A stretch of DNA of 64,000 nt from Fructilactobacillus florum DSM 22689 = JCM 16035 (lineage in GTDB: Bacteria; Bacillota; Bacilli; Lactobacillales; Lactobacillaceae): NCBI RefSeq assembly GCF_001436645.1, contig NZ_AYZI01000001.1, positions 124,001 to 188,000 of the forward strand. Direction: 5' to 3'. Position numbers and translations under genes: made by a program. The notes under the pieces were generated by a model that saw nothing but the letters and a program-made list of their open reading frames with translations, ran no database searches and had not been told where the DNA came from. Positions 20,202 to 52,561 of the stretch are shown here, piece by piece (the first letter of the stretch is position 1; each line of letters starts with the position of its first letter).

Positions 20202-21086
20202 TTAGTTTTCTTTTTTCAGCTGCTCCGCCAGTTCTAGCAGGTATGCCCGCAAATCAGCTTTGATTTCCGGATGGTTAATCCCATATTCAATATTGGTTTC
20301 AAGCCAGCTTAACTTGTTTCCAGTATCAAATCGTTGTCCTTTAAACTCATGCGCATAAACGTCTTCACTTTTATTGAGCGTGTCAATCGCATCAGTCAAT
20401 TGTACTTCATTTCCCTTACCGGGCTTCGTATGCTCTAGCACGGAAAAGATCTCGGGAGTGAAAAGATATCGTCCAATAATTGCTAAGTCGCTAGGAGCAA
20501 CCTCTGGATCTGGTTTTTCGACAAAGCTCTTTACATCATACAAGCCCGTTTCAATCTCACTAACTGGGTCAATGACTCCATACTTTGAAGTTTCTTGATG
20601 GGGTACCCGGGTGACTGCTAATGTCGATTTTCCTGATTTTTCGTAGCTATTAATTAGTTGCTTCGTCAAAGGCACCTGATCACGCATCAGATCGTCACCT
20701 AACATCACCACGAACGGATCATTGCCAATAAAACTCTGTGCAGTTAAAACAGCATCACCAAGCCCATTGGGATAAGGTTGCCGAATGAAATAAATATTCA
20801 TTTCATTCGATTTTTGAACCATTTCTAACATTTCTGTTTTATTTTTTGATTTTAGATTGGCCTCTAGCATATAGTTCGGCGAAAAATGATCTTCAATCGC
20901 CCGCTTGCCTTTTCCAATCACGATCACTAAATCAGTAATGCCTGATTCTTTGGCCTCTTCAACGATATACTGAATCGTAGGTGTATCAACAATTGGCAAC
21001 ATTTCTTTTGGCATCGCCTTTGTTTCTGGCAAAAAGCGAGTTCCTAATCCGGCAGCCGGAATAATTGCTTTGGTAACTTTTTTCAT
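20202..21086 (-). CDS. galU: UTP-glucose-1-phosphate uridylyltransferase
   Basis: Makes UDP-glucose for galactose metabolism, cell-wall glycolipids, teichoic-acid decoration and exopolysaccharide. 294 residues. Nucleotide-binding AIIPAAGLGTRFLPETKAMPKE at the N-terminus, VIGKGKRAIEDHF, GLGDAVLTA, and VEKPDPEVAPS, typical of bacterial GalU. Last gene of the run starting at secA; only 23 bases separate it from gpsA, and a terminator follows. Confidence 0.97.
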   Translation of the reverse strand: MKKVTKAIIPAAGLGTRFLPETKAMPKEMLPIVDTPTIQYIVEEAKESGITDLVIVIGKGKRAIEDHFSPNYMLEANLKSKNKTEMLEMVQKSNEMNIYFIRQPYPNGLGDAVLTAQSFIGNDPFVVMLGDDLMRDQVPLTKQLINSYEKSGKSTLAVTRVPHQETSKYGVIDPVSEIETGLYDVKSFVEKPDPEVAPSDLAIIGRYLFTPEIFSVLEHTKPGKGNEVQLTDAIDTLNKSEDVYAHEFKGQRFDTGNKLSWLETNIEYGINHPEIKADLRAYLLELAEQLKKEN

Positions 21087-40253: not shown

Positions 40254-40280
40254 TTGGCACTCAAACTATTCAAGTGCTAA
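40254..40280 (-). promoter_or_regulatory. CIRCE element (HrcA operator)
   Basis: TTGGCACTC, nine bases, AAGTGCTAA: the inverted repeat bound by HrcA, with one mismatch in each arm relative to the consensus TTAGCACTC-N9-GAGTGCTAA. It lies between the groES promoter and the ATG, in the 5' untranslated DNA. Confidence 0.95.
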
Positions 40281-40369: not shown

Positions 40370-41003
40370 ATTTCTGATCGTAGTGGTCAATAAAGTAGAT
40401 TAAAGTTTGGAGCTCGTTCGTTAAATCAACGTTGTGGACGCGAATTCGATCTGGAACTGACAACCGGATCGACGTGAAATTCAAAATCCCCTTCACCCCA
40501 GTTTCAGCGACTTGATTCGCCACCTCCTGTGCTACTCGCGAAGGAACTGTGAGAATTGCAACCGTAATTTGCTGATCCTGTAACTGCGTCACTAGTTGCT
40601 CAATGGGATAGATAGGAACCCCGCTCTGAACCGTATTAATCTCCTGAGAATTAATGTCAAAAGCGGCCGAAATGCGGATGTTACTATCCTGATGAAAGCT
40701 AAAGTTAAGTAGAGCATGACCCAGATTACCAACCCCGACGAGTGCAACATTGGTTAGTCGATCCTGATCGAGAATATCCTTAAAAAATGCCAGCAAGTTA
40801 TCAACATCATAACCATAACCGCGCTTGCCCAAAGCCCCAAAATACGAAAAATCGCGCCGAATGGTTGCTGAGTCAACTCGAATTGCATCTGCTAATTCAT
40901 TCGATGAGACCCTTGTTTTCCCACCATCATGCAAAATATTAAGGTAGCGATAGTACAATGGTAACCGCTTGGCTGTTGCACGCGGAATCTTTGTTTCTGT
41001 CAT
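40368..41003 (-). CDS. rex: Redox-sensing transcriptional repressor Rex
   Basis: Senses the NADH/NAD ratio and represses fermentation and respiration genes when NADH is low. 211 residues. N-terminal winged helix ([25 protein letters not shown], about 33-57), followed by KRGYGY. Rossmann domain with [11 protein letters not shown] near 89-99, then a swapped C-terminal helix. ATG with GGAGGAA upstream. A Rex-like operator lies 67 bases upstream, suggesting autoregulation. hicD, an NADH-linked dehydrogenase, is elsewhere in the window. Confidence 0.97.
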
Positions 41004-41041
41004 TTAATTTCCTCCACCTGACTATTATCGAAAGCCTGATA

Positions 41042-41070
41042 AGAATTATTTTAACATAAAACAATTCTTT
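41042..41070. promoter_or_regulatory. Extended dyad around the rex -10 region
   Basis: AAGAATT...AATTCTT with inner TTTT...AAAA around a five-base centre. It encloses the extended -10 TGTTAAAAT (minus strand, 41049-41054). The dyad abuts the Rex-like site and could bind a second regulator or extend the Rex site. Confidence 0.45.
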
Positions 41071-41089
41071 GTGAAAATATTTTCAAAAA
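41070..41089 (-). promoter_or_regulatory. Rex-like operator upstream of rex
   Basis: Left half TTGTGAAAAT and right half ATTTTCAAAA form a dyad with nine of ten positions matching. The half-site TTGTGAA is that of Rex, but the halves stand two bases further apart than in the consensus TTGTGAA-N4-TTCACAA. It overlaps the expected -35 region of the rex promoter. Confidence 0.6.
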
Positions 41090-41113: not shown

Positions 41114-41148
41114 AAGAAAAACACTAGCCGCTGGACTAGTGTTTTTTT
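41114..41148 (-). terminator. Terminator after tsaD
   Basis: Stem AAAACACTAG/CTAGTGTTTT that begins in the last codons of tsaD; T residues follow on the minus strand. It ends the nine-gene run starting at tmk. Confidence 0.75.
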
Positions 41149-52510: not shown

Positions 52511-52545
52511 TATAAAAAAATCTCTCGATCAATTTGATCGAGAGT
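52511..52545 (-). terminator. Terminator after the SRP RNA
   Basis: Stem CTCTCGATCAA/TTGATCGAGAG, then seven T residues after one A on the minus strand. Confidence 0.85.
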
Positions 52546-52561
52546 TAGTTAACTATAACGA

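Follow-up and report, generated by a model that had tools for sequence, protein, structure and literature searches.

Two questions are raised by the region upstream of rex, the gene for a redox-sensing transcriptional repressor. Is the Rex-like inverted repeat in its promoter a variant operator with widened half-site spacing, or an ordinary site through which Rex would control its own gene? And does the second dyad, which adjoins this repeat, belong to another regulator that shares the promoter? The initial annotation of the window (the whole 64-kb stretch of DNA that was analysed) had placed the two dyads at 41042-41089; both are present, each one base lower, and they span 41041-41088.

The rex gene and its promoter

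Judging from its sequence, the rex product is an intact, full-length Rex with both the DNA-binding and the NAD(H) domain predicted to be present. It matches the Rex equivalog NF003989 at 344.5 bits over residues 2-210 (NCBIfam; cut-off 177) and aligns to solved Rex chains over residues 3-209, best to 2vt2 (E 5.6e-79). One copy of rex was found in the 1.35-Mb genome, and the named relatives of the protein are those of Fructilactobacillus lindneri (87%) and F. sanfranciscensis (84%). Upstream of rex lies tsaD, and the intergenic region upstream of rex is 132 bp long. A hairpin at 41115-41148 ends in a T-run. By eye this hairpin looks like a terminator; the terminator scan left it unflagged. The features of rex and its promoter are as follows.

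40371-41003, minus strand: rex, redox-sensing transcriptional repressor, open reading frame of 211 aa (stop codon 40368-40370)
41070-41075, minus strand: predicted -35 of rex, TTCACA, within the operator (promoter prediction)
41048-41053, minus strand: predicted -10 of rex, TAAAAT, preceded by TG (extended -10), 16 bases from the -35
41069-41086, minus strand: Rex-like operator in the 18-bp register, TTGAAAA-TATT-TTCACAA; 12/14 Rex letters, gap of 4
41069-41088, minus strand: Rex-like operator in the 20-bp register, TTTTGAA-AATATT-TTCACAA; 13/14 Rex letters, gap of 6
41041-41069, no strand: second dyad, AAGAATT...AATTCTT, 13-base arms (12 pairs) separated by 3 nt; encloses the predicted -10; not conserved

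Promoter prediction thus assigns rex its own promoter (TTCACA-16-TAAAAT), the -35 of which is part of the Rex-like site. In congeners, TTGTG or TTATG is seen before the -10 of rex. We set aside a reading of these words as a further Rex half-site, because they are also compatible with a Gram-positive TRTG extended -10. Separately, a CIRCE-like element precedes groES at 40254-40280 (TTGGCACTC-N9-AAGTGCTAA); it differs by two letters from the CIRCE consensus.

Operator register in the window and across the family

The same bases (TTGTGAAAATATTTTCAAAA at 41069-41088) allow two readings. With the standard four-base gap, the right half TTCACAA is perfect, the left half agrees with TTGTGAA at 5/7 letters, and the outer TTG...CAA of the 18-bp operator (G3 and C16) is retained. 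The description of the half-sites as two bases further apart than usual holds for the six-base-gap register, which matches 13/14 letters, but the standard gap also fits, at 12/14. The 132-bp intergenic region was dinucleotide-shuffled 1000 times; no shuffle reached 13/14 at gap 6, and two reached 12/14 at gap 4, so that locally both readings exceed chance.

Neither spacing stands out across the genome or the window. With up to two mismatches, the organism's own genome holds 8 gap-4 sites versus 9 in the control (no enrichment) and 11 gap-6 sites versus 7 (no clear enrichment); with up to three mismatches, the 64-kb window holds 6 versus 7.2 expected at gap 4 and 7 versus 6.8 expected at gap 6. 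We also scored the site with a matrix made from 16 published Rex sites of L. oligofermentans, taken from table passages of PMC4972977, and with a variant to which adhP sites were added. The window's own site scores 4.42 at gap 4 and 3.49 at gap 6 with the first matrix, and 3.58 and 3.29 with the variant. Because these scores are nearly alike, the register has to be decided by the family rather than by the site.

For this comparison, 70 rex loci were drawn from 70 of 289 matching genomes, namely from the better-scoring part, so that distant genera are under-sampled; 20 more loci were viewed and left uncounted. TTCACAA occurs within 200 bases upstream of rex in 56/70 of these loci (shuffled mean 2.04) and is absent from this interval in 14/70. 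A TTCAC-type -35 with a -10 was found in 50 of the 70, the other 20 giving none, and removal by hand of three implausible cases (L167, L169, and L175) left 47 promoters, including that of F. lindneri (L002) despite its doubtful -10. These were aligned on the -35 TTCACAA, and the left half played no part in their selection. In this alignment, the TTG of the 18-bp register (-11 to -9) is present in 31/47 loci from 9 of 13 genera, and the TTG of the 20-bp register (-13 to -11) in 0/47. The "altered site" is hence not borne out as a conserved feature. Within the window's own genus, the two halves fare differently: TTCACAA stands at the rex -35 in 10/10 genomes, but the TTG is kept in one of ten, the window itself, and the nine congeners keep the left half of neither register. 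The choice of register therefore rests on other genera.

The matrix scores agree with the TTG counts. The genus-weighted mean is -0.08 at gap 4 and -2.81 at gap 6, with each of the 13 other gaps in the range 0-14 at or below -5.54. Locus by locus (gaps 2-9, n=47), the best gap is 4 in 30 cases and 6 in five; the variant matrix with adhP sites changes these numbers to 26/47 and 9/47, the latter including all five g14 loci.

Some of these promoters carry a further copy of the right half. A second TTCACAA lies exactly 44 bp after the first, beyond the -10, in 24/70 loci from six genera, and elsewhere among the 70 the spacing is 45 bp in five, 46 bp in three, and 40 bp in two. Examples from other genera are L047, L034, L048, and L043. 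Among the loci viewed, a left partner is not evident; none of the 10 loci of the window's genus has a second copy. Half-sites may thus be arranged in pairs at rex promoters.

Rex-like sites before other genes were also compared. Orthologues of adhP, named from the own-genome protein, are present in 10/10 genomes of the genus, and in 8/10 an 18-bp site of at least 11/14 lies within 81 bases of the start; gap 6 scores at most 10/14 in these upstream regions. On these sequence matches, adhP is likely a Rex target. The own-genome 18-bp Rex-like site before adhP is at G000:C49:45207-45224 (L185), and the adhP loci are L195-L204. In two congeners, G001 (L187) and G004 (L188), TTGAAAA-N4-TTCACAA, with the same left half as the rex site of the window, precedes an AEC-like transporter gene (match below the family cut-off) by about 85 bp. 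G002 has an 18-mer identical to that of G001, and in L188 a D-lactate-dehydrogenase-like frame (likewise a match below the family cut-off) follows. Exact half-site pairs at gaps 2-9 are absent from the ten genomes of the genus, and a plasmid search with the rex upstream region gave no match. Relaxed pairs among the matches listed (TTGTKAA/TTMACAA, gaps 3-7, 201 genomes) give no spacing count, and the controls were often equally high.

Could the operator nevertheless be truly widened, such that Rex here binds the 20-bp TTTTGAA-AATATT-TTCACAA across a six-base gap? The higher letter count, the shuffles, and the nine loci with gap 6 as best gap under the variant matrix all speak for it, as does the presence of TGAA, the inner part of the 20-bp left half, at the matching place in 13/47 promoters from five genera. 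Across 201 genomes of the family, moreover, exact TTGTGAA/TTCACAA pairs occur 16 times at gap 6 and never at gap 4. Ten of the 16, however, lie inside reading frames, two are in hairpin-like stretches, and one is unclear, leaving three, in three genomes of one genus (g4; L056, L057, and L058), where a perfect TTGTGAA-N6-TTCACAA stands 190 bp before adhE (named by its N-terminal match). We regard these three as real candidates for a 20-bp site. Between the pair and the gene lie several more TGTGAA words, and an 18-bp-type site of 11/14 is nearer the gene. The cited passages on S. aureus Rex (PMC2883068) bear on both registers. Binding there suffers most from substitutions at positions 4 and 5 of the half-site; should the numbering start at the outer end, the 18-bp left half has lost exactly these two letters and the 20-bp one has kept them. 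The same passages report strong impairment by changes in spacer length, which argues against a six-base gap. The spacer effect, the complete lack of TTG at the 20-bp position among the 47 promoters, the lower family score of gap 6, and the loss of the left half in all nine congeners make a widened operator improbable. A broader version, in which some Lactobacillaceae Rex tolerates or uses a 20-bp operator (at rex here, at adhE in g4), so that one repressor would serve two spacings with the dimer seated in either register, appears to us similarly doubtful.

A different objection is that TTCACA could be merely the -35 of a constitutive promoter, its likeness to a Rex half-site being coincidental and rex not being autoregulated here. 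Promoter function by itself conserves such hexamers, and the left half is absent in nine of the ten genomes of the genus. The word kept in 10/10 is, however, the seven-letter TTCACAA and not TTGACA, a TTG 11 bases upstream is kept in 9/13 genera, and a second copy lies exactly 44 bp on in 24/70 family loci. We therefore judge a coincidental resemblance unlikely.

The second dyad

The second dyad encloses the -10, as the initial annotation had stated (TAAAAT, 41053-41048 on the minus strand), and is longer than was described there. Its score is reached by 0/500 shuffles of the 55-nt promoter segment. Comparable dyads number 13 in the real window and 0-2 in each of five block-shuffled whole windows, so that one per window can be chance; several of the 13 look like terminator hairpins. 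Two further dyads with 13-base arms lack an obvious T-run (20782-20809, CGAATGAAATAAATATTCATTTCATTCG; 52520-52546, ATCTCTCGATCAATTTGATCGAGAGTT). An RNA hairpin was rejected as an explanation, because the predicted transcription start, inferred to lie about 7 bases past the -10, is near the far arm.

The claim that another regulator shares the promoter finds little to sustain it. In its favour, the dyad has 12/13 pairs around the -10 and a score reached by 2/300 shuffles of the rex upstream region. Against it, the ten genomes of the genus (its own and nine congeners) contain no match to it with up to three mismatches except itself, although regulators tend to have several sites. At the corresponding place, the nine congeners can form 1-7 of the 13 pairs, and other genera up to 9; shuffled windows, moreover, commonly contain a dyad of this kind. 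An operator of another regulator in this species thus seems very unlikely. The initial annotation had named a lack of conservation in close relatives as refuting, and by that standard the second dyad fails. We regard it as either accidental, in an A/T-rich promoter, or specific to the species.

Probable Rex autoregulation and known Rex systems

From the Rex-like site and its overlap with the predicted -35, from the retention of TTCACAA, and from the register counts, we conclude that rex quite probably carries an ordinary, slightly imperfect 18-bp Rex operator for its autoregulation. On this reading, the seeming 20-bp dyad reflects an A/T-rich left half that can be paired with the right half in two registers. 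Binding by Rex, repression of rex, and a response to NADH are what we infer from this arrangement. At a high ratio of NAD+ to NADH, the 18-bp site TTGAAAATATTTTCACAA would be occupied by a Rex dimer; as the strong half TTCACAA contains the rex -35, bound Rex would exclude RNA polymerase. NADH would then release Rex and allow rex to be transcribed. The weak left half, in which TTG is kept and the next letters are changed, would render the site asymmetric and its affinity probably moderate, and a lowered affinity would suit a repressor that must still be made.

The proposal that rex is autoregulated thus gains support from the -35 position of the site, from the conservation of TTCACAA (10/10 in the genus, 56/70 in the family), and, by analogy, from streptococcal precedents. 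These make autorepression of rex likely in a Fructilactobacillus-like species, which is a modest addition. More generally, TTCACAA is often retained as the -35 word of the family's rex promoters as the other half drifts, and A/T-rich Rex sites can be readable in two registers, such that relatives should be compared before a spacing variant is called.

The closest counterparts of the window's putative operator are Rex-bound sites in Streptococcus, another genus. In both S. suis and S. mutans, the site overlaps the rex -35, as the window's site does the predicted -35. The S. suis site, as printed in PMC6154617, has the same build as that of the window: its right half, TTCACAA, is intact, its left half is degenerate, and the fragment bearing the promoter is shifted by Rex. 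According to the cited passages of PMC3441419, S. mutans has two rex sites, one of which overlaps the -35 and is bound by Rex, and guaA is co-transcribed; the second site and the co-transcription are features of S. mutans that set it apart from the window. In S. agalactiae, according to passages of PMC8376106, autorepression by Rex exceeds 200-fold, and the consensus, TTGTWNNNNNNTTCACAWNNT, is asymmetric like the site described here, differing from it in that the window has A, not T, after TTG. There, C14 and C16 are important, and binding was unchanged when one site was given greater symmetry.

Beyond the streptococci, the S. aureus Rex operator is given in PMC2883068 as TTGTGAAW4TTCACAA, which has the 18-bp frame, A/T-rich spacer, and identical right half of the window's site; the 18-bp left half departs from it in two letters, which are probably those that matter most in the passages on half-site changes. 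In the part of PMC8836258 that describes the T. maritima Rex complex, Arg48 contacts a G, which we take to be the G of TTG. Within the family of sites that served as our matrix, finally, rex does not appear in the table passages of PMC4972977, which place the L. oligofermentans sites before genes for NAD(P)H re-oxidation and others, and which are predictions rather than binding tests. These predicted sites are 18 bp long with conserved G3 and C16, and their left halves include ATGCAAA and also TTGAAAA, the very left half found at the rex promoter of the window.
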